Program-made: the position numbers and the translations under genes
DNA from: a virus
Length of the DNA stretch: 21,577 nt
Direction: 5' to 3' (one strand)
Virus record (IMG/VR): IMGVR_UViG_3300020468_000091
Span: 1-21,577 of that record
The notes under the pieces: generated by a model
What the model saw: only the letters and a program-made list of their open reading frames with translations
Told to the model about the DNA's origin: nothing
Database searches by the model: none
Part shown: positions 6,664 through 16,393 of the stretch, piece by piece
Layout of the letters: every line of letters begins with the position of its first letter
How positions within the stretch are numbered: the stretch's first letter is position 1

Positions 6664-7383
6664 TTATTTAGGGAAATGAAGGTTTCCACTTTCTGGACAA
6701 ACTTCAAATACTGGTATATCGTCTACTTGTCTTGCTTGTATATCTGGATGATTATTTAGGTCTTGACTGTTACCTCTCCAACTAAATGAGTTATTGAATG
6801 CAATTGAGATTCTATCAAAGTCTGTTTCTAATGGTTCTACATGATGTTGCATTGCAGAAGGAAATAATAATACATCACCTTCTCTTGGTTCTACAACAAA
6901 GTTATCTCTACTTCTTGCAGTTGCATGTATAAAGTTTGACATGTGTTTTGCTTGGCCACTTAAGAATTGTAAAACTCCAGACCCCCTAGTCTCTTCTGGA
7001 ACAGAAATATAAACAACACCACTATACCAACAGCCTGGATGTGTATGCACATTATTATATCCATGTTGATAGTTTATGTTTACCCAATAATTATTATGTT
7101 CTAAAGTAAAATCTTTATGATGTTCTCCACAATAAAATGGGAATACTTCTTTATTAAAAACCTCTTCTACACCATTGAGTAAAGATTGAAATATGGGTCT
7201 TTCATCTACACCATCGTTAGATTGCCAACCAGCACCATTATTAGAACGAGACCTACCAATTGGGTCATTTTTTCTCATGGTATAACATTCTTTTTTCATT
7301 GCATTTAGTTGTTCTTGAGAAACTACACCCATATCTAATAGGTTTGCTTTAAATACATGCCATGAAAACATCGGTAAATACAT
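6664..7383 (-). CDS. 2OG-Fe(II) oxygenase superfamily protein (HxH type)
   Basis: This is probably a non-haem iron, 2-oxoglutarate-dependent hydroxylase. In the 239 residues, WVNINYQHGYNNVHTHPG (100-117) gives H113 and H115 as an H-x-H metal pair. H180 or H181 (MQHHVEPL) is the distal histidine, and R191-I-S193 is the 2-oxoglutarate-binding R-x-S. The pattern of N-I-N, HTHPG, SGVVY and a late GDVLLFPS segment resembles the TIGR02466-type putative 2OG oxygenases. The substrate is unknown. It begins with a TAATG overlap on the previous gene and has AAAGGAG 8 bases upstream, so it is probably translated as the last gene of the accessory cassette. Oxygenases of this kind are common beside tail-fibre genes in marine T4-like phages. 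Confidence 0.85.
   Translation of the reverse strand: MYLPMFSWHVFKANLLDMGVVSQEQLNAMKKECYTMRKNDPIGRSRSNNGAGWQSNDGVDERPIFQSLLNGVEEVFNKEVFPFYCGEHHKDFTLEHNNYWVNINYQHGYNNVHTHPGCWYSGVVYISVPEETRGSGVLQFLSGQAKHMSNFIHATARSRDNFVVEPREGDVLLFPSAMQHHVEPLETDFDRISIAFNNSFSWRGNSQDLNNHPDIQARQVDDIPVFEVCPESGNLHFPK
6665..6671 (-). promoter_or_regulatory. Weak late-promoter-like box before the 83-residue gene
   Basis: The minus strand reads CTAAATAA, one base away from the ATAAATA core, at 35 bases from the ATG at 6630. This matches the spacing of the better boxes. It overlaps the last codons of the upstream oxygenase gene, so it may be only coding sequence. Confidence 0.25.
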
Positions 7384-8258
7384 TATGAATACTCCTTTCT
7401 AGTCTTAAACAGTTTTGTATAGTATGGTTCAGAAACTTTATTTTTAATATCTTCCCTTTGATTCATTTCCTTTAAATCACCTTTTATATCTTTTTCAAAT
7501 CTTTCAACAACTTCTTCTTTAGTTAAATATGTAATTTTACTTTTCCAAGGATATCTAACAAAAGGTACAATTTGTACCAGTGGTGTACCTTTAGGAATTA
7601 TAAAAGATTCATCTACTTTAGGATAAAAAATTAAATGATTATTTGTAGTCAACTGATTAAATTTATCAGTATCTATAATACCTTGCCATGTAGACAAATA
7701 TGGATTATCAAAAAGAAAAGGGTCAAGATAATAACAAGATGTACCTTTAGGTGTTTTTATTAAAAAATCCATTTTAAATTTTAACTGCATCTTATCATCT
7801 CTGCTCATTCCAGTTACTTGTTTTGCTGGATGACCACCTACCCTGTTTATCATATCAGATAGTTCCTTAATATTAAGTTTATTAATTTCAATATAATTTA
7901 CTATATCATCTACTTTTTCTTCTTTTAATAATGTTTTGATATAAGAAAGTTTTTCTGTTGATATATTTTTTAAAGGAATTGTTATAGATATTGGTTCATC
8001 ATAATCATTTTTACTCATTAGAACTAAAACTGTGTGTCTATTTCTAATAAGATAACCCATAGATAACCAATCATGCATGGCTGGACATTTTTTAATAGTA
8101 TCTAATCTATTACCCTCTGCATCTTCAATTAATACTGGTAGTTTTTTATACCATTCTGGTTTTACTTTTTTTGCTGGAACTGGTTCAAATAGACTATTTT
8201 CAGTGTCTATAACACACTGAAATTCTATTTCCATTTCTTTTATTGGGCATTGTTCCAT
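7383..8258 (-). CDS. DUF6065-like phage protein
   Basis: This 291-residue protein has no known activity. Several stretches look like the DUF6065 family: FEPVPAKKVKPEWYKKLP near residue 24, TIKKCPAMHDWLSMGYLI near 54, HPAKQV in the middle, then a KTPKGTSCYYLDP segment, GIIDTDKF, and IPKGTPLVQIVPFVRYPW near 222. I name the family from memory, so it needs a profile search. Histidines and acidic residues are scattered but no clear catalytic triad is visible. The gene is very AT-rich and lysine-rich compared with the structural genes, which fits recent acquisition. It overlaps the DUF2061 gene by 19 bases and shares one base (TAATG) with the following oxygenase gene. Confidence 0.7.
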   Translation of the reverse strand: MEQCPIKEMEIEFQCVIDTENSLFEPVPAKKVKPEWYKKLPVLIEDAEGNRLDTIKKCPAMHDWLSMGYLIRNRHTVLVLMSKNDYDEPISITIPLKNISTEKLSYIKTLLKEEKVDDIVNYIEINKLNIKELSDMINRVGGHPAKQVTGMSRDDKMQLKFKMDFLIKTPKGTSCYYLDPFLFDNPYLSTWQGIIDTDKFNQLTTNNHLIFYPKVDESFIIPKGTPLVQIVPFVRYPWKSKITYLTKEEVVERFEKDIKGDLKEMNQREDIKNKVSEPYYTKLFKTRKEYS

Positions 8259-8428
8259 AATCGCTCGTGTAAATAATATAATATAAGTTTTATTACAAAG
8301 TCAAAAGTCATGATTGCACCAGCAACCTCAACTGAACCTGTAAGGACATAACCTATTAATCCTGTAGTGACTGTTGCAATTATTCTCCATGAAAATGCTT
8401 TTGCAATAGATTTACTTTGTGAGTCCAA
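8240..8428 (-). CDS. DUF2061 small membrane protein
   Basis: This is a small integral membrane protein of the DUF2061 type. The diagnostic pattern is KAFSWRIIATVTTGLIGYV followed by a second hydrophobic stretch and the ending LILYYLHERLW, i.e. two membrane spans with conserved S-W-R and Y-x-H-E-R-x-W. I chose the TTG start at 8428 (62 residues) because AGGAGA lies 4-5 bases before it. A longer frame with a TTG at 8476 (78 residues) has no such site and would overlap the upstream gene by 65 bases instead of 17. DUF2061 is known from bacteria next to or fused with APS-kinase genes, and here the upstream gene is APS-kinase-like. Its molecular role is unknown. Confidence 0.8.
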   Translation of the reverse strand: MDSQSKSIAKAFSWRIIATVTTGLIGYVLTGSVEVAGAIMTFDFVIKLILYYLHERLWNNAQ

Positions 8429-9200
8429 GCTGTCTCCTAATTTCTGTTGCAGAAATTGATTCAGTCTCTTTATCAAAAGATTCTTGTTCTATCTTATAAC
8501 CTACATCTCTACCATAGGTTATATTGACAATGTTTGGTACTTTTTGTATAATAAAATGCACATTTTCTTCGTATCCTTCTCCTAGTAAAAACATTTTTAT
8601 GTTCTGTTTTACTGTTTTAAAATCAAAAGGATTCTTTTTACTATTCTTCATTGCACGAATCATAATACAAACTTGACCTGTTTTATCATAACATCTTTTA
8701 AATAATGCAAGATGACCATCATGAAAAGGTTGAAATCTACCTAACATTTGTGTAGTTGGTTTATTAATATCAAACCTTCTGTTCTCTGCAAGTAACTCTC
8801 TTGCAATAACTTCGGAATGTAATTCACCATTTTGGTCTTCTACCCAATAATCAACTTCATTTTTTAAAGGTCTTTGAAATGCTTTATTTGTATCTGCATA
8901 TCTACCTTTTTCTATAGTATCCATAAAGATAATATAATCTGGGTTTAAGATTTGTCTTCCTTGAGTAAAAGGACAAACAAAATCCATAATTGCAAAAGGT
9001 TTGTCGGAATCTCTGCATAGGTCTTTCATTCTATGCACCTGTCTGAGTCTACCTTCTTCTGAGAAATCCCAATCATTATGTTGGGCTCGGATTGCATCAG
9101 CATTGAAATGGTCTGCATCTAAATGTTCAAGTAGACATTTTGATATGTAAGTTTTTCCACTGCCTGGCAATCCAAAAATTAAAATTGTTTTTGTTTTCAT
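8412..9200 (-). CDS. APS-kinase-like / nucleotidyltransferase fusion protein
   Basis: This is a two-domain enzyme of 262 residues. Residues 1-145 form a P-loop kinase with Walker A GLPGSGKT at 10-17 and a segment NADAIRAQHNDWDFSEEGR (33-51) that aligns with the LDGDxxR and FSxExR region of adenylylsulfate kinase, although the usual DGD reads NAD. Residues 150-262 are a cytidylyltransferase-fold nucleotidyltransferase with GRFQPFHDGH (154-163, HxGH motif) and ISATEIR (249-255, ISxTxxR motif). The second domain most resembles NMN/FMN adenylyltransferases rather than ATP sulfurylase. The joint substrate is unknown; NadR has the same two activities in the opposite order, so a nicotinamide role is an alternative. 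It sits 8 bases after the oxygenase gene and overlaps DUF2061. Confidence 0.85.
   Translation of the reverse strand: MKTKTILIFGLPGSGKTYISKCLLEHLDADHFNADAIRAQHNDWDFSEEGRLRQVHRMKDLCRDSDKPFAIMDFVCPFTQGRQILNPDYIIFMDTIEKGRYADTNKAFQRPLKNEVDYWVEDQNGELHSEVIARELLAENRRFDINKPTTQMLGRFQPFHDGHLALFKRCYDKTGQVCIMIRAMKNSKKNPFDFKTVKQNIKMFLLGEGYEENVHFIIQKVPNIVNITYGRDVGYKIEQESFDKETESISATEIRRQLGLTK
8433..8438 (-). promoter_or_regulatory. Ribosome binding site that sets the DUF2061 start
   Basis: AGGAGA on the minus strand lies inside the last codons of the kinase/nucleotidyltransferase gene, with the TTG at 8428 four bases after it. It supports the short 62-residue product and coupled translation. Confidence 0.6.
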
Positions 9201-9208
9201 ACTAATAC

Positions 9209-10036
9209 TTATTGTTCTCCCCAGAGACGAACTTCGTCTCCACGAACCACTAAACTAGTTCTATATGGAAATTGATTTTCAACATTGTAATCTGCATCTG
9301 GGCCTGGATGTCTGTGAGTCATTGCACCATTCATAATGACTAATCTGTTTGGTTTGTATTTAACTCTACCTATTTCATGAGACCCTTCATCTTCTGGTAT
9401 TCCAGAGTATTCCTCTGCATGACTATGGTATTCACTATTGTAAAAAATTAAATCTCCACCCCAGTCATCATCCCACCTCATTTGGTCATAATAAAGAAAT
9501 GATAAATTATTTAAACAATCATTTCCTAATCCTGTATCTTCATGTACAGTCCCATCTTGTCCTTTTGTTTGTCCATTAAATCCACAATATTGAAATTTGA
9601 CCCAATCAAAATGAAAGTCTTGTCTTAATTTGTGAATAAACCAATCTATCATAGAATGTCTATAACCAACACCTTTTGGTGATATAGCATTTTTTTTCCA
9701 CTCTGCTTGATTCTTCCACCTATCACTATTTAATGCTCTTTGTTCTGACCACCAGTCTGGACTTTTTGCTTTTCTCTCCCAACCCCTATCTTCTATATTA
9801 ATGTAAATAGATTCACCCCAATATAAATGTCTTATTTTATCATTACGAATTACTCTATTTTGTCTACCCCATTTTGAAGAACTAAATCTCGATTCATACC
9901 AAGAATCATGAATACTTGGTGGTAAATAATTATCAATTACCCATATTTGTTTAAAGGGTAAACTAGGAATGGGTTTAGGTTTTTGCAAAAACTGAACATC
10001 TATAGGTTGCATTAACCATTCATAATGGTTTGACAC
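9209..10036 (-). CDS. Prolyl-4-hydroxylase-like 2OG-Fe(II) oxygenase
   Basis: This is probably an iron and 2-oxoglutarate-dependent hydroxylase, 275 residues long. The metal ligands are H165-E-D167 (TVHEDTGLG) and H241 (MTHRHPGP). WGGDLIFYN at 192-200 is the strand typical of prolyl-4-hydroxylase-like enzymes, and R259-T-S261 (YRTSLVVRG) would hold 2-oxoglutarate. The start is a GTG, because it is the only one coupled to the previous stop (TAGTG) and AAGAGG lies about 8 bases before it. Its substrate is not known. It lies two genes downstream of a 535-residue protein dominated by Arg-Pro repeats, which is a possible target. The N-terminal 120 residues are rich in tryptophan and arginine and unlike the catalytic part. 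Confidence 0.87.
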   Translation of the reverse strand: MSNHYEWLMQPIDVQFLQKPKPIPSLPFKQIWVIDNYLPPSIHDSWYESRFSSSKWGRQNRVIRNDKIRHLYWGESIYINIEDRGWERKAKSPDWWSEQRALNSDRWKNQAEWKKNAISPKGVGYRHSMIDWFIHKLRQDFHFDWVKFQYCGFNGQTKGQDGTVHEDTGLGNDCLNNLSFLYYDQMRWDDDWGGDLIFYNSEYHSHAEEYSGIPEDEGSHEIGRVKYKPNRLVIMNGAMTHRHPGPDADYNVENQFPYRTSLVVRGDEVRLWGEQ

Positions 10037-10674
10037 TAAACTGACCTCTTATCCTCACCGATGTCTTCTTGTCCACCATTAATATCTAAGGTATCAGAAC
10101 TTTTATCGAATCTATCATCTGCCCAAGAAGACTCACAGAAAGTATCGATATTTGGTATAGTTGGCAATTGATTTTCATAAAACTCATAATCTTTTAAATC
10201 TATTTCAAGTGTTTGATTTATTTCTTCTTTTAATCTATAGTAAATACCATTTATAAAATCCATCCAATCTAAAACTCTTCTTCCAATTTGTCTTCTTGGG
10301 TCGTTTGACATTTCTCTAGATGCAATTACAAGTTGTGCTGTATTTTTAAATCCAAGTTCTTCGATATTACTTTGTAATGCTGAAATTCTGTCTTCGACTA
10401 GGTATTCAAGGTCTTCAATTGTCTGTTTTTGCATGGTTACACTTGCGGGCGGGTCACATAATTTAATATATTCTTCTATTTCAGAAATATGTTCTTCACT
10501 TAAAGGTAATTTTTCTTCATTTAAAACATATTCAGTTTCATCATCAAAAGGACAATAAAATAAAACATCGTAATCAAATGAGAATTGTGGTTTTTGTGTT
10601 TTTTTATAGTTCCAACGAAGTCCTTTATCGTTAGTTATGTGTAACACATTTTCGTCATCGTACACTAATAACAT
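10036..10674 (-). CDS. Unknown protein, possible fibre-assembly chaperone
   Basis: This is a 212-residue acidic protein that I do not recognise. The first 100 residues look like a small beta-rich domain (LLVYDDENVLHITNDKGLRW onward). Residues about 100-175 are strongly helical (DLEYLVEDRISALQSNIEEL and later a DWMDFINGIYYRL segment). The last 30 residues are rich in Asp, Ser and Gly, and probably disordered. A short gene directly after fibre/adhesin genes with a beta domain followed by a helical part is the usual layout of tail-fibre assembly proteins, so that is a guess from position and shape only. GGAG precedes the ATG by 8 bases. The stop TAG overlaps the GTG of the oxygenase gene. Confidence 0.75.
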   Translation of the reverse strand: MLLVYDDENVLHITNDKGLRWNYKKTQKPQFSFDYDVLFYCPFDDETEYVLNEEKLPLSEEHISEIEEYIKLCDPPASVTMQKQTIEDLEYLVEDRISALQSNIEELGFKNTAQLVIASREMSNDPRRQIGRRVLDWMDFINGIYYRLKEEINQTLEIDLKDYEFYENQLPTIPNIDTFCESSWADDRFDKSSDTLDINGGQEDIGEDKRSV

Positions 10675-10712: not shown

Positions 10713-12320
10713 TTAAGGCCAGGGTTTATTCAAATCACCATCCCATGTAGATACTGGTCTAGTTGCTGGTCGAGTCGAAGGTCTAGTTGCTGGTCGAGTC
10801 GAAGGTCTAGTTGATGGTCTAGTATTTGTCACCTCATAACTTGTAGGCCTATTGATTGTTTGTTCAAAATTAGCAGGTCTACTATTTTGTAGTTGTGATG
10901 GTCTCGGTATTGTTTGTTCAAAACTTGTAGGTCTAGAAATTGTTTGTTCAAAACTTGTAGGTCTACTAATAGTAACTTCAAAACTTGTAGGTCTTGGAGT
11001 TTGAAAATTAGTAGGTCTGTTAATAGTTACCTCATAAGAAGTAGGCCTATTAATAGTTACCTCATAAGAGGTAGGTCTATTAATTGTTTGTTCATATGAA
11101 GGCGGTCTATAGTTTTGTATTTGAAAATTAGCAGGCCTATTAATAGTTCCTTGAGTTTGATAGTTTGCTGGTCTATTAATAGTTTGGTTAGTTTGATAGT
11201 TTGCTGGTCTATTAATAGTTCCAGTAGTTTGATAATTTGCTGGTCTAGAATTCTGTATCTGATATGATGGTGGTCTATAGTTTTGTATCTGATATGATGG
11301 TGGTCTATAGTTTTGTATCTGATATGATGGTGGTCTATAGGCCTGCACTTGATAGCTATCTGGTCTCTCAGCCCATCTTTGATAATTTGCTGGTCTTGGT
11401 ATTGTTTGTTCATAAGAGCCAGGTCTATTAATGGTAATTGCAAAAGGTGGATTTGTTAAACCAAATTTAGGATTATAAGAGCCAGCGATGGTTTGTTGAT
11501 AAGAGGTAGGTCTTGGTATTGTTTGTTCATATGAAGTAGGTCTAGAAACTTGGACTTGGTATTCATCTGGCCTATATATTTCTTGTTGGTAGTATTGTGG
11601 TCTATATCCAGTAGTCTGGAAGTATTGTGGTCTATATCCAGTAGTCTGGAAGTATTGTGGTCTATATCCAGTAGTCTGATAATTTGTAGGTCTAGGATTA
11701 GTAATCTGAACATTATATGATGTTGGTCTAGGATTAGTAATCTGAACATTATATGATGTAGGTCTAGGATTAGTAATCTGAACATTATATGATGTAGGTC
11801 TAGAACCTTGAGTTTGATAGTTTGCTGGTCTATTAATAGTTACTTCATAAGAGCCAGGTCTTGGTATTGTTTGTTCATAAGAGCCAGGTCTTGGTATAGT
11901 TTGTTCATAACTTGATGGTCTACTATTTTGTAATTGAGCAGGTCTAGGAATAGTTTGTTCAAATGATGAAGGTCTATTGATTGTTACTTCATAAGATGAT
12001 GGTCTATTAATGGTAACTTCAAAACTTGATGGTCTTGGAGTTTGGAAATTCGTTGGCCTAGGTATAGTTACTTCATAAGACGAAGGTCTATTAATCGTCA
12101 CTTCAAATGGTTGTTGAAAAGGTTGTTGAAACCCTTGTTGGAATGGTTGCTGAAAAGGTTGCTGAAAAGGTTGTTGTACCTGTATTGTACCTGTTTGAAA
12201 TTCCCACCCTGTAGGAGTTTTTCTTTTTACATCAACGACCTTCTTCCACCCAGATGGAGTTTTTACTCTCCATCCTGTAGTGTCATTCCATCCCGCTGGG
12301 GTTTTTACTTTTGAACTCAT
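10713..12320 (-). CDS. Arg-Pro decapeptide-repeat protein, putative virion adhesin
   Basis: This 535-residue protein is almost entirely repetitive. Residues 6-39 hold three KTPxGW motifs, a pattern I associate with phage structural proteins. Residues 49-72 are six QQPF/QQGF units like those of cereal prolamins. Residues 78-500 are 40 units that each begin Arg-Pro followed by a Tyr/Phe-containing core, such as RPTSYEVTIN, RPPSYQIQNY and RPTSYNVQITNP. Residues 501-524 are six RPxT/RPVS units, and the end is TWDGDLNKPWP. Unit lengths are 8, 10 or 12 with one irregular unit of 29 (270-298). There is no signal peptide or membrane span. Its place after the 1346-residue fibre suggests a surface fibre or adhesin. 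A GAGGAAATT ribosome site precedes the ATG. Function is not known; real gene status is well supported by the repeat periodicity in this frame. Confidence 0.88.
   Translation of the reverse strand: MSSKVKTPAGWNDTTGWRVKTPSGWKKVVDVKRKTPTGWEFQTGTIQVQQPFQQPFQQPFQQGFQQPFQQPFEVTINRPSSYEVTIPRPTNFQTPRPSSFEVTINRPSSYEVTINRPSSFEQTIPRPAQLQNSRPSSYEQTIPRPGSYEQTIPRPGSYEVTINRPANYQTQGSRPTSYNVQITNPRPTSYNVQITNPRPTSYNVQITNPRPTNYQTTGYRPQYFQTTGYRPQYFQTTGYRPQYYQQEIYRPDEYQVQVSRPTSYEQTIPRPTSYQQTIAGSYNPKFGLTNPPFAITINRPGSYEQTIPRPANYQRWAERPDSYQVQAYRPPSYQIQNYRPPSYQIQNYRPPSYQIQNSRPANYQTTGTINRPANYQTNQTINRPANYQTQGTINRPANFQIQNYRPPSYEQTINRPTSYEVTINRPTSYEVTINRPTNFQTPRPTSFEVTISRPTSFEQTISRPTSFEQTIPRPSQLQNSRPANFEQTINRPTSYEVTNTRPSTRPSTRPATRPSTRPATRPVSTWDGDLNKPWP
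10851..11048 (-). repeat. Duplicated seven-unit block, C-terminal copy
   Basis: Units 33-39 (residues 425-490) have lengths 10-8-10-10-10-8-10, matching units 1-7 at 11892-12089 in order and type. Both include RPTNFQTP as second unit and a shorter xQLQNS unit as sixth. This is a higher-order duplication within the array. Confidence 0.8.
11892..12089 (-). repeat. Duplicated seven-unit block, N-terminal copy
   Basis: Units 1-7 (residues 78-143) mirror the unit order of the block at 10851-11048. Both blocks are 66 residues long. Confidence 0.8.
12105..12176 (-). repeat. QQPF tetrapeptide repeats
   Basis: Six 12-base units encode QQPF (one is QQGF) between the KTPxGW head and the Arg-Pro array. 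They are read directly from the translation of residues 49-72. Confidence 0.9.
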
Positions 12321-12352: not shown

Positions 12353-15300
12353 CTATGAGTATGTTATCCAGATATCACCAACTGCTCCATCTGAACCGCC
12401 AGGTGCAGAAGAATGTATGAATACATTTCTCATTGCTTTTGCACTTGCACCTATTGTTGTATAACTTGTTGTTGCAGCTCCTGTAACTCCCAATGTTCCA
12501 CCCACTGTTTGGTTACCACTAACTGCTAATCCTGTTAAAGTACCAACACTTGTAATTGCAGTCTGAGCTGCACCTGTTACTGTAGCTGCACTTCCAGAAG
12601 TGTTTCCTGTGACATTACCTTCTAAGTTTGCAACCAATGTTCCAGTAGTAACAGTTAAACTACCAGTTGAAGAACCTGTTGCAGTAGTTGTTCCCATAAC
12701 AAACTTATCTGCACTTTCGTCCCAACCCATAAATGCATTGTTACCTGTTGAACCTCTTTCAAGTATAAGACCTAAGTCATTACTGTTTGAACCAGTATTA
12801 CCAGAACCAAGTTCTATTAATGCATCTTCAATTGTTGTGTTTGTTGAACTATTTGTTACAGATGAACCATTAACTGTTAGGTTACCAGTAATTACAACAT
12901 TACCACCAGCAGTTATATCTGTTGCAGCTATATCTGCAAAGGTTACATCTGAGGTTGTTGCAACATCCTGTCCAATACTAATTGCAGGCTCCCATCCTTC
13001 ACCAGCACTACCTGTGACAGTAACACCAGTTCCACCAGTAACATTGTCAACATAGTTACCAGTTGTTCCAGAACCTAAAGCAACATCTGCTACTACAAAA
13101 TTAACTTTTGCAGATGCATCGTCATAAGTAACTGCAATACCTGTTTCTGTATTACCAGTAAACATTCCACCAACTGCGTCTTGAGCTGCTTCATTAAAGT
13201 CTGAAACTGCACCACTTGTAATACTAATGTCTACATTAGATGCACTTGTTACTCTACCTTTTGAATCTACTGCTACTTGAGCAACACTGTCTGCATCACC
13301 ATAAGTTGCAGCTGATACACCAGAGTTTGCAAGTGTGATTGGTAATGCAACATTACCTGTTCCATCAAATGACTGTGCTGAATCTGTAGTTGCATCTCCA
13401 CTTACTGTAAAGTTTCTTGAAGTTGCAAGTGCAGTTGCAGTTGCAGAGTTTCCTGTTGAACTCCCAGCACTACCACTTACATTACCTGTAATATTTGCAA
13501 CTAGAGTTGCAACACCATATCCTGTTCCAGTTGTATTAACTGTTGTTGAAGGTTCTACCTGTGTATCTGTAAATAATCTAAATGTGTTATCTGTTGATGC
13601 ATCAAAGAATATACCACCATATTTGGTTGTTCCACCTTCCACATACTTACCATAAAAACCAAAGTCTGTTGCATTTCCTGTATTTGCATTTGTTAAACCT
13701 GTAAAGTTTGAGTCGGATACAATTGCACCTGTTTGTGTTGTTGTTCCACTAACTACCAAGTTACCACTAACTGTTAAATCATTTGATACTGTTACATCAC
13801 TTGGTAATCCTACTGTTACTGTTCCAGAAGATTCTCCAACTTCTACTTCATTCGAAGTTCCAGAGAATGTAAGTGTATTTCCTAATGCAATTGCAGTAGA
13901 AGCTGAACCATCGGTTACTGTAAAACTAGAGTTTGCAAGATTACTGTTTGAAATTGAACCTGCTAACATACTGTTTTCTACAGTTCCAGCACCTATTGTC
14001 AATGCAATACTAGTGCTACCTAGGTTTGTCATAACTCCAGAACCAGTTACATCTCCTGTGTAAGATAATGTTGGGTCATTAACATTAAAGTCTAAAGTGC
14101 CATCTGAGTCTTCATAGGTAACTGAGATACCACTTTCTGTATTAGATGATACCATTCCACCAACGACATCTTGAACTCTTTCTGTAGTATGGTAGAGATT
14201 GCTTGAGCCTTCGGATAAGTTGTCTGTGTCAAATCCAGAAATACTTGTTACTAAATCAATAGTTCCATCACTATCTTCATAAGTTGCAGTAATACCTGTT
14301 TCTGTATTTGAACTGAACATTGCTCCTACAGTGTCTTGAATTACTTCTGATAGGTCTATATTTGCAGAACCATCGAATGAAACACCATGAATTGTTCTTG
14401 CATTCGCCAATGCAGTTGCAGTTGCAGCGTTTCCTGTTGTATCTTGGTTAAGTGTTGCAACTGTAAAATCTAAAGTACCATCTGCATCATCATATGCAAC
14501 TGTAATACCACTTTCGGTATTAGATGTTACCATTGCACCTACGATATCTTCTACAGACTCAGTAAGGTCTGTAATAGTTGATGCAGTTGTGCTTACTACT
14601 AAATCGATTGTACCATCTGAATCTTGATATGTTGCACCAACACCTGTTTCAGTATTACCAGAGAACATTGCACCAACAATGTCTTGAATTCTTTCTGCAT
14701 TTAGTGTAACATCACCAGTTGATACAGTAAAGTCTGTTCCATCAAATGTTGCAACACCAGCATTTGTTTCTGTTGCAAGTTCAGCTGCTATTGTAGCAGT
14801 TGACCCTTCACTTGCTGTATGAGTTATATCAATACCTTGACCAGCAGATAACTCTCTTAAAAAGTTACCAGTTGTATCTGTTCCTAATACAACTGAATCA
14901 GCTTGAATAGTTGAATTAATAGATATGTTTCCAGTTCCATCAAATGATGCAGAACCAACTACATCTCCTGCTATTGCAATTGTTCTTGCAGATGCAAGTG
15001 CTGTTGCTGTATCAGCATTACCTTCTAAGTCTGCAATTAATTTACCTGTTGAATGTCCTGTTCCACTTGTATTAACTGTGGTTGTAGGTTCTGATTGGTT
15101 TCCATGAAATAATCTAAACTTACTTGATTCAGATGCATCCCATAGTAAACCAGCATATTTTGTGGTTGAACCTTCAACATATTGACCATACAAACCGAAG
15201 TCGGTTGCATTTGCAGCGTTATCTTTTGCAACTTTTACTGAACCATCTGCCACTTCTAAAGTAGTAGATGATACTGTTGTTGTACTTCCTTGTACTGTAA

Positions 15301-16393
15301 GGTTACCAGATAAAGTTAAATTGGCTGCACCAACATCTCCTGTTACTGTTAAATCGTTTCCTATTGTTACATCATCTGGCAATGCAAGAGTTACACTTGC
15401 ACTTTCTGAACCAGAGCCAGATACAGTAATTTCATTTGCTGTTCCTGTAATATCTTGTACATAGTTTCCTGTTGTGTCTGTTCCTAATGCAACACTGTTA
15501 GCTGCAATTGTTGTAGATATAGATGTATTTCCTAGGTCTGTCATTGTTGCAGAACCAGTTACATCTCCTGTCAAGGAAATGGTAGGGTCATTGACATTAA
15601 AGTCTAGAGTACCATCTGAGTCGTCATAGGTCACTCCTATACCACTTTCTGTGTTAGATGATACCATTGCACCAACTACATCTTGAACTCTCTCAGTGGT
15701 GTGATATTGGTTTGTTCCTTCTGGTAAAAAAGTTGTGTTTGGAGTTGCACCTATTATTACAGATGCACCCATTCCACTATGGTTTGCACAATAGTAATAA
15801 TGTGGATTCATTGCATCCATTTCAAAACATACTTCTACATATGCACCAGCTGAACCTGCTGTTCCTACTTTATTATAGATAGTATATCCAGCTGACATTT
15901 CAGAACCACTGTTATGTGTTCCATCACTGGTTGTAGAGAATCTTAAAGGATGGTTTGAGTTTGTATTATCTGACTGGTCAAATCTGTAAACAACATTGGG
16001 AGAAAGTTTTGCTGTTTGTTGTGACCCACCATCTAATAAAAACTTACCACCATTTACTGTAACTACAACTTTATGGTAGTATGGTGCTGATGTATTGTTT
16101 AATTGTTGTTCTACTGCAAGGTCAATAGTTCCATCACTATCTTCATAACCTACAGTTATATTAGTTTCAGTGTTAGAACTAAACATAGCTCCCACTGTAT
16201 CTTGAATGAATTCTGCACCTACTGTTGCACTAAATGTACCAGATGAATCATCATATGAAAATGATATACCTGTATGTGTTCCAGCACCGAACAGACTTGA
16301 AATCTGGTCTTGTATCGCTTCAACTGCACCAGTAGAGTCTAGTTCTCCAGATGCATTTAAAAGGTCTGCAAGATATCTTGCTTTTGTTGGCAT
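12353..16393 (-). CDS. Giant modular tail-fibre protein with cupredoxin-like domain
   Basis: This 1346-residue protein is probably a long tail fibre or baseplate-attached adhesin. It starts MPTKARYLADLLNASGELDS, an N-terminus I know from marine T4-like phage fibres. A 33-residue repeat of the form IQDxVGAMFSSNTETGI..YEDSDGTIDL occurs eight times, at about residues 27, 62, 235, 568, 613, 684, 739 and 1069. Residues 106-215 are an inserted cupredoxin-like domain with H148, C202, H205 and M208. Two large related modules lie at 340-490 and 865-1015, each with GNL.V.G, NATDFG.YG.YVEG and FRLF. A third GNLTVNGSS module starts near 1165. The C-terminus AMRNVFIHSSAPGG...DIWITYS looks like a fibre tip. 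GGGAG precedes the ATG, and an ATAAATA box lies 35 bases upstream. Confidence 0.9.
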   Translation of the reverse strand: MPTKARYLADLLNASGELDSTGAVEAIQDQISSLFGAGTHTGISFSYDDSSGTFSATVGAEFIQDTVGAMFSSNTETNITVGYEDSDGTIDLAVEQQLNNTSAPYYHKVVVTVNGGKFLLDGGSQQTAKLSPNVVYRFDQSDNTNSNHPLRFSTTSDGTHNSGSEMSAGYTIYNKVGTAGSAGAYVEVCFEMDAMNPHYYYCANHSGMGASVIIGATPNTTFLPEGTNQYHTTERVQDVVGAMVSSNTESGIGVTYDDSDGTLDFNVNDPTISLTGDVTGSATMTDLGNTSISTTIAANSVALGTDTTGNYVQDITGTANEITVSGSGSESASVTLALPDDVTIGNDLTVTGDVGAANLTLSGNLTVQGSTTTVSSTTLEVADGSVKVAKDNAANATDFGLYGQYVEGSTTKYAGLLWDASESSKFRLFHGNQSEPTTTVNTSGTGHSTGKLIADLEGNADTATALASARTIAIAGDVVGSASFDGTGNISINSTIQADSVVLGTDTTGNFLRELSAGQGIDITHTASEGSTATIAAELATETNAGVATFDGTDFTVSTGDVTLNAERIQDIVGAMFSGNTETGVGATYQDSDGTIDLVVSTTASTITDLTESVEDIVGAMVTSNTESGITVAYDDADGTLDFTVATLNQDTTGNAATATALANARTIHGVSFDGSANIDLSEVIQDTVGAMFSSNTETGITATYEDSDGTIDLVTSISGFDTDNLSEGSSNLYHTTERVQDVVGGMVSSNTESGISVTYEDSDGTLDFNVNDPTLSYTGDVTGSGVMTNLGSTSIALTIGAGTVENSMLAGSISNSNLANSSFTVTDGSASTAIALGNTLTFSGTSNEVEVGESSGTVTVGLPSDVTVSNDLTVSGNLVVSGTTTQTGAIVSDSNFTGLTNANTGNATDFGFYGKYVEGGTTKYGGIFFDASTDNTFRLFTDTQVEPSTTVNTTGTGYGVATLVANITGNVSGSAGSSTGNSATATALATSRNFTVSGDATTDSAQSFDGTGNVALPITLANSGVSAATYGDADSVAQVAVDSKGRVTSASNVDISITSGAVSDFNEAAQDAVGGMFTGNTETGIAVTYDDASAKVNFVVADVALGSGTTGNYVDNVTGGTGVTVTGSAGEGWEPAISIGQDVATTSDVTFADIAATDITAGGNVVITGNLTVNGSSVTNSSTNTTIEDALIELGSGNTGSNSNDLGLILERGSTGNNAFMGWDESADKFVMGTTTATGSSTGSLTVTTGTLVANLEGNVTGNTSGSAATVTGAAQTAITSVGTLTGLAVSGNQTVGGTLGVTGAATTSYTTIGASAKAMRNVFIHSSAPGGSDGAVGDIWITYS
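13091..16315 (-). repeat. Eight dispersed 33-residue repeats in the giant fibre
   Basis: Copies lie at residues 27-58, 62-94, 235-267, 568-600, 613-645, 684-716, 739-771 and 1069-1101. Two subtypes appear: an AMFSSNTET...GTIDL form (odd in acidic residues at the end) and an AMVSSNTES...GTLDFNV form. The first and last copies are the most diverged. Several of the seventh and third copies' neighbours, such as YHTTERVQDVV, are also duplicated. Confidence 0.85.
15750..16078 (-). other. Cupredoxin-like domain with candidate type-1 copper ligands
   Basis: Residues 106-215 of the fibre read as a beta sandwich with VVYRFDQSDNTNSNHPLRFS (134-153) and PHYYYCANHSGMGA (197-210). In blue copper proteins one His on an N-terminal loop and a C-x2-H-x(n)-M loop bind copper; here these would be H148, C202, H205 and M208. 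The Met spacing (x2) is shorter than in plastocyanin (x4). Metal binding is inference. I recall similar segments in other marine phage structural proteins. Confidence 0.65.

Follow-up and report, generated by a model that had tools for sequence, protein, structure and literature searches.

What does a virus build from a protein that consists largely of Arg-Pro-initial units of even length? The window, that is, the whole stretch of DNA analyzed here, is a 21.6-kb viral fragment (21,577 nucleotides; IMG/VR record IMGVR_UViG_3300020468_000091), and one of its genes encodes such a protein. A first-pass annotation had suggested that the even lengths correspond to the alternating faces of a beta strand and that the product may be an undescribed fiber or adhesive. 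We consider it quite probable that this RP-repeat protein is the virion fiber shaft of a T4-like aquatic phage, pairing antiparallel with itself and modified by the product of a neighboring oxygenase gene, 2OG3.

Organization of the repeat protein

The RP-repeat ORF lies on the minus strand and begins with ATG, while the same stretch on the plus strand is full of stops. The gene and its parts are as follows.

10713-12320, minus strand: putative RP-repeat fiber protein, 535 residues, read as a fused two-arm hairpin from the ORF, unit lengths, mirror symmetry and register
12174-12320, minus strand: N-terminal base module, residues 1-49, three VKTPxGW repeats, invariant in orthologs
12102-12173, minus strand: arm 1 base, residues 50-73, six 4-residue QQPF/QQGF units (at the register S=573 described below, five Pro-Pro pairs, with QQGF at the sixth site)
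11487-12101, minus strand: arm 1, residues 74-278, putative outgoing strand, units of 8/10/12 residues in strict parity
11439-11486, minus strand: putative tip, residues 279-294 (AGSYNPKFGLTNPPFA), a break in the repeat rule at the center of the mirror symmetry
10821-11438, minus strand: arm 2, residues 295-500, putative returning strand, unit lengths mirroring arm 1 (19/19)
10749-10820, minus strand: arm 2 base, residues 501-524, 4-residue TRPx units facing the arm 1 base units
10716-10748, minus strand: C-terminal base strand, residues 525-535, TWDGDLNKPWP, a motif found also at the C-terminus of the separate strand-B proteins in the split clade described below

Residues 78-500 comprise 40 units beginning with Arg-Pro: 29 have 10 residues, six have 12, four have 8 and a single one has 29. 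Five units of 4 residues come next. The first-pass count of about 40 units of 8, 10 or 12 residues is therefore accurate for 39 of the 40. Its statement that nearly the whole product is repeat holds for about 79% of the chain, or 84% if the 4-residue units are counted; repeats are absent from residues 1-49 and from the last 11. The aromatic residue that it placed at position 5 is Tyr or Phe in 38 of the 40 units and is replaced by Leu in two 8-residue units. The single rule-breaking unit that it reported, residues 270-298, was found as described, and it is also the center of a mirror symmetry of unit lengths that the annotation had missed; probably it is the tip. The protein contains no His, and Gly accounts for 18 of its 535 residues.

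Units of 8, 10 or 12 residues persist (with one 11-residue unit among more than 400) in orthologs of as little as 43% identity, which have 36-47 RP each. Identical repeat peptides are often encoded by different codons, although some neighboring copies share the same DNA sequence. Since the unit lengths are kept in divergent orthologs and the codons differ, the pattern can be attributed neither to chance nor to replication slippage.

The RP-repeat protein showed no match in INPHARED (50,697 phage records) or, by sequence, in the PDB, and the Pfam and PHROGs searches gave low-complexity noise and no confident family. The Pfam matches to Keratin_B2, Fibrinogen_BP and Cementoin were rejected as low-complexity and under the cut-off. 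In IMG/VR, 13 direct relatives were found, and more with conserved ends; all members are metagenomic. The family thus appears to be undescribed, as had been supposed, and the recommended search of viral and metagenomic proteins returned relatives and no characterized family. When the N-terminal module alone (three VKTPxGW) was used as the query, at least 150 aquatic phage stretches were found in IMG/VR, with quite different repeats. This module defines a superfamily, one that is common in aquatic viral contigs and yet matchless among the 50,697 phage records. One phage, H28 from Manatee Spring, was rejected as a relative; it matched the repeats of relative L031 by composition, and its gene context is unrelated.

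A two-residue register

Over arm 1 (residues 50-282), all Pro (34/34), Arg (20/20), Ile/Val (24/24) and Glu (11/11) lie on fixed parities. Over arm 2 (residues 299-524) the same is true of 27/27 Arg, 21/21 Ile/Val, 10/10 Glu and 29/33 Pro, the four exceptions being RPP. The relatives that share the N-terminal module carry other repeats, such as YPYIANAQ, RSPFTYNH, FQQPYGYQQNYNAPYP and RRRPVQQSYQYNNTEP. In all of these types Pro occupies one parity and Tyr/Phe the other, often exceptionless over hundreds of residues; in L090, 75/75 Pro and 80/80 Tyr/Phe obey the rule. Family-wide, Pro makes up 29% of the Pro face and 0.1% of the opposite one, while Tyr makes up 21% of the latter and 0.5% of the former. 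Among the control ORFs of T4 and C48C1, no Pro window reached 0.9, there being only five Pro windows. Loci of these parity proteins hold further parity proteins among their other ORFs. The two-residue register is clear from these counts. Between close relatives, 159 of 203 indels are even (78%, with tip domains and ambiguous alignments counted in), and this value, below 100%, would count against a strict reading of the register.

Mirror symmetry and pairing of the two arms

Outward from the 29-residue unit, the unit lengths of both arms run six 10s, three 12s, four 10s, 8, three 10s, 8 and 10. The 13 distinct unit-length patterns among the relatives are likewise mirror-symmetric, exactly so save for L004, which has one extra unit, and L001, which has one 11-residue unit. 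The extra unit of L004 is unpaired, and it is absent from the near-identical relative L026. Tandem (direct) matching of unit lengths is lower than mirror matching, and shuffles reached the observed value at most 5 times in 10,000. At the tip, orthologs have larger non-repeat inserts instead (insert unit of 29-72 residues in single-insert orthologs), and in three-insert members (51-35-51) the symmetry axis is the middle insert. The symmetry is weak or absent in L031 and L034. Two giant fused relatives of 1373-1379 residues (L057:2624-6763 and L061:9998-14119) are mirror-symmetric about a large center, with 112-114 Arg-Tyr/Phe pairs. It is worth mentioning that this center, about 240 non-repeat residues, is a candidate receptor-binding tip domain.

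We then consider which residues would face each other. Pro-Pro counts alone leave the register of the window protein open, since several even shifts tie; the Arg-Tyr/Phe pairs fix it at S=573, where residue i lies opposite residue 573-i and 44 such pairs are formed, base included. At this register six QQPF/QQGF units of the base lie opposite six TRPx units, and the Trp of WDG lies opposite the eighth residue past the Trp of the third GW (GW+8). In nearly all fused proteins with enough pairs, the register given by this landmark is also the optimum for Arg-Tyr/Phe. L012, L027, L029 and L051 are off the landmark by 8 because of a second WDG at the C-terminus, and L031 has few Arg-Tyr/Phe pairs. 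In the fused proteins, R-R, Y-Y, E-E and E-R pairs number 0 against 10-47 expected. When arm 1 of one relative was set against arm 2 of another, the mean number of pairs fell from 38 to 19. Such mutual compensation in length and residue, familiar from the two sides of an RNA stem, means that the stretches pair physically and antiparallel. Read in this way, pairing of the arms is strongly supported by sequence, and with it the first-pass proposal that even lengths reflect alternating strand faces.

Strands encoded by two genes

Most of the distant relatives have no self-symmetry. In these, the next gene encodes a second parity protein (B) that ends in the WDG motif, and the A and B proteins line up antiparallel with an offset that hardly varies. 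Among 43 distinct A/B pairs, the mean z was 8.4 for cognate against 3.7 for non-cognate combinations, the true partner ranked first in 41 of the 43, and 86% of Pro were paired in cognate against 47% in non-cognate combinations. The landmark register, which was first noticed in the window and in L123 and then applied to these pairs, coincides with the optimal register for Pro-Pro in 37 of the 40 distinct pairs. The cross-strand pairs enriched in this split clade are P-P, H-R, I-R, E-F, A-Y, G-Y, N-S and Q-T. The pairing rules are therefore not uniform: Arg with Tyr/Phe in the fused clade, mainly Pro with Pro in the split clade. Because the split-clade A and B proteins match antiparallel at the shared landmark, the window protein can be read as A, tip and B fused in one chain.

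Two further features were observed among the relatives. A second adjacent parity pair (C/D), often with an N-terminus MxDEIYxN, lies upstream of the o111 gene (L075:480-1592 and 1849-2493; L104:2-1483 and 1485-2603; L123:2-1327 and 1327-2439); its antiparallel matching is weak, with an offset constant at 31-33 in half of 12. In addition, strand A of many split-clade phages ends, at the supposed fiber tip, in an autoprocessing domain of Hint/intein-like type (CFAPGSMIW...HN), with Pfam matches under the cut-off, as in L123:10001-11962, L125:9989-12091, L071:10001-11617, L130:9239-11500 and L131:10001-11767. This domain may self-cleave or ligate the tip.

There are two other possible interpretations of the repeats. 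The chain could be a disordered Pro-rich low-complexity linker or adhesive of the mussel foot protein, resilin or extensin type, with even spacing arising from repeat duplication. The composition and the exclusively low-complexity Pfam matches agree with this, as does the AlphaFold2 monomer model (13 sequences), whose very low confidence (pLDDT 34, pTM 0.15) gives no independent support for beta structure; monomer prediction had been proposed as a check in the first-pass annotation. A disordered chain, however, would have no need of a two-residue register shared by unrelated repeat types, of mirror-symmetric unit lengths, of a fixed antiparallel register between two genes or of a loss of pairs on swapping. 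Duplication would give direct repeats, and direct matching is weaker than mirror matching. We find this interpretation improbable. The second is a beta-solenoid or triple beta-helix shaft of the T4 gp5C or gp12 type, with one unit per turn and unpaired arms. The T4 gp5 beta-helix is built of octapeptide repeats (PMC3004832), and the present units are near that size; the gp5C octads, however, are Gly-dominated, whereas the units here are of 8, 10 and 12 residues with RP and an aromatic position 5. A solenoid predicts neither that arm 2 follows arm 1 in reverse order nor the cognate antiparallel matching of two genes, and it seems to us highly improbable.

Gene neighborhood and linked oxygenases

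The window belongs to a T4-like phage, with terminase, gp3, gp13 and gp14. The genes around the repeat gene that concern us are the following.

12353-16393, minus strand: large tail-fiber-like structural gene directly upstream (PHROG structural/tail-fiber matches; conserved order)
10036-10674, minus strand: o212, obligate neighbor of the repeat gene, with no INPHARED match
9209-10036, minus strand: 2OG3, prolyl-4-hydroxylase-like 2OG-Fe(II) oxygenase (invariant HxD...H...RxS; AlphaFold2 model; fold matches)
7383-8258, minus strand: o291, conserved cassette gene (phrog_7084)
6664-7383, minus strand: 2OG5, second 2OG-Fe(II) oxygenase, conserved in the cassette (PF13759; Pfam E 7.9e-22)

In the fused clade, where visible, the gene order is tail-fiber gene, repeat gene, o212, 2OG3, o291, 2OG5 and gp13, and the larger run goes from tail fiber and RP-repeat gene through gp13, gp14, gp3 and gp16 to gp17. 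Mapped split-clade loci have the same neighbors, with several parity genes among tail genes. The HMMs of four cassette genes each matched 73-75 ORFs in 82 further loci, many of which are incomplete. Loci were also recruited by o212 or 2OG3 alone (the best-scoring 80 per search) and scored where 3.5 kb upstream was present. A parity protein lay upstream in 99/99 of these loci, which are redundant and represent about 45 distinct repeat proteins; o291 was found in 98, 2OG3 in 97 and 2OG5 in 93. So recruited, the loci show an obligate gene linkage. From its position, we would guess that o212 is a fiber chaperone.

Among 58 sequences of 2OG3, H165, D167, H241, R259 and S261 are invariant, corresponding to the HxD...H iron triad and the 2OG-binding Arg. 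Its AlphaFold2 model has a pLDDT of 87, and the top Foldseek matches in the PDB are mostly prolyl hydroxylases (best E 4.5e-7, TM about 0.4-0.6). Against Pfam PF13640 the window copy is under the cut-off and the split-clade copies are over it. In L023, L024 and L047, where 2OG3 has no early ATG, it was found by tblastn at 57-59% identity; the matches in INPHARED phages are weak. Since the cassette linkage is obligate and the 2OG3 fold is nearest to prolyl hydroxylases, it is likely that 2OG3, perhaps together with 2OG5, hydroxylates the repeat strands.

Some other observations on the cassette can be added. 2OG3 is matched by phrog_274, named 'DNA endonuclease V', and this label in cyanophages may mark 2OG-Fe(II) oxygenases. 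A gene of about 500 residues lies between the parity gene and o212 in L123 (13365-14933) and L061 (14176-15630); it matches phrog_28018 in both and is GT8-like in L123. The GT8-like gene is present in the split clade, with a match at the cut-off, and possibly glycosylates the fiber. Between 2OG3 and o291 the window has a bifunctional nucleotidyltransferase and P-loop kinase-like gene (8412-9200), which is limited to the fused RP clade and had no match in the 82 further loci.

As to the phage itself, the terminase most similar to its own among the collected phages belongs to Phage C48C1 (60%), and the cassette is absent from the first 30 kb of C48C1. The cassette also occurs in L035 (NYUU01000002.1), which is catalogued as part of a Synechococcus MAG; this contig is probably phage DNA that was binned with the host or sampled along with it. 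A cyanobacterial host is without support, because psbA is absent from six related contigs.

It is also conceivable that the arms pair antiparallel in a non-virion product, such as a host-surface coat or an assembly scaffold, and that the oxygenases act elsewhere. Room for this is left by the fact that virion location and cassette functions are predicted from the genes. Against it stand the run from tail fiber to gp17 in the fused clade, the same neighbors in mapped split-clade loci, the several parity genes among tail genes and the obligate linkage to oxygenases, and we regard it as unlikely. A fiber would fit a neighborhood with a tail-fiber-like gene and the neck genes 13 and 14, so that this half of the first-pass proposal is retained; its adhesive half, drawn from the mussel foot proteins, had composition as its only basis.

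Proposed model of the fiber

In the proposed fiber shaft, the base would be formed by the N-terminal KTPxGW module and the C-terminal WDG segment of the same chain. From there an extended beta strand of about 200 residues would lead outward; the chain would then turn at a short tip (about residues 279-294) and return paired antiparallel with itself over its full length. Even unit lengths would hold every residue on its own face, with Arg opposite Tyr/Phe across the strands and Pro limited to positions at which an NH would make no bond to the partner strand. Parity is what a two-stranded ribbon would require, because the NH of every second residue points off the partner and Pro is harmless only there; Pro at outward sites may also block sheet growth. 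In most relatives the two strands would come from separate adjacent genes and form a two-chain ribbon. The strands would be hydroxylated by 2OG3, perhaps also by 2OG5, and in the split clade a GT8-like enzyme may then glycosylate them. The sequences themselves show the two-residue register, the mirror symmetry, the antiparallel matching of cognate strands and the obligate linkage of the genes; the beta conformation, location in the virion, hydroxylation, possible trimerization or other oligomeric state, and receptor binding by the tip are what we infer. The fiber would probably be about 60 nm long (about 200 x 3 Å), with the T4 needle as the yardstick, which is about 150 Å long (PMC3004832) with arms of 50 residues (PMC6957217).

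On balance, we favor the view that this is a new architecture class. Antiparallel strands of hundreds of residues, from one chain or two genes, would recognize each other via a cross-strand pairing code (P:P, R:Y/F, R:I/H, Y:A/G, N:S, Q:T) that evolves compensatorily like base pairs. The virus fiber containing them would be matured by a prolyl hydroxylase of the virus, with a glycosyltransferase perhaps acting as well in the split clade. Strand pairing is normally unreadable from one protein sequence; here it can be read, much as it can for the stems of an RNA, and more than 40 distinct phage gene pairs show covariation between a strand from one gene and a strand from the other. A design rule is suggested for very long, thin, non-aggregating beta ribbons, with Pro only at outward-facing sites. 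In a gene survey of Baltic Sea viruses, the viral use of prolyl 4-hydroxylase 'remains cryptic' (PMC9301287). The obligate tie of a prolyl-hydroxylase-like enzyme to a Pro-rich structural protein makes this question testable, and suggests what the long-puzzling prolyl-hydroxylase-like enzymes of marine viruses are for.

Comparison with known systems

Mussel foot protein 1 consists of Pro/Tyr-rich decapeptides, and the first-pass annotation had drawn a parallel with it. The parallel extends to composition only: mussel foot protein 1 is not known to have mirror symmetry, and no tyrosine-oxidase gene was recognized among the typed neighbors of the RP-repeat gene. The prolyl-hydroxylase-like neighbor is a functional parallel to mussel foot protein that the annotation lacked. 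An analogy to resilin was rejected as compositional only. A collagen-like protein was also rejected, as there is no Gly-X-Y, the period is 2 and not 3, and the strands would be paired and not in a triple helix. What is shared with collagen and hydroxyproline-rich systems is the linkage of a Pro-rich structural protein to a prolyl-hydroxylase-like enzyme. 2OG3 resembles the prolyl-4-hydroxylases PHD2/EGLN1, Trichoplax PHD and Pseudomonas putida P4H in fold, HxD...H and 2OG-binding Arg, at 11-16% identity and TM about 0.4-0.6, and its peptidyl-proline substrate is putative. A viral prolyl hydroxylase, the P4H of Paramecium bursaria Chlorella virus-1, is cited in PMC9301287.

The closest likeness is to the T4 gp37 needle, whose structure is attributed to Bartual et al. 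2010 as cited in PMC7291167. In its domain D11 the stem runs out over residues 882-931, a 28-residue tip spans 932-959 and the return covers 960-1009 (PMC6957217), the tip being inserted in the stem and the stem in the base. The gp37 arms have 50 residues against about 200 in the window protein. Its stem has no Pro, 14 His in the arms and iron-binding His sites, whereas the window protein lacks His; gp37 also shows no clear mirror statistic, and in the PDB and phage searches neither gp37 nor gp12 nor any other solved fiber had sequence similarity to the window protein. A needle of the gp37 type is a trimer with a collar fold and six antiparallel strands. Neither a two-gene split nor a linked hydroxylase is described for T4 in the open-access literature. 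The sequence and His/iron comparisons thus give no grounds for membership in the gp37 group, but the window protein, known by its sequence only, would work like the gp37 needle: a base from both chain ends, an outgoing strand, a tip and an antiparallel return.
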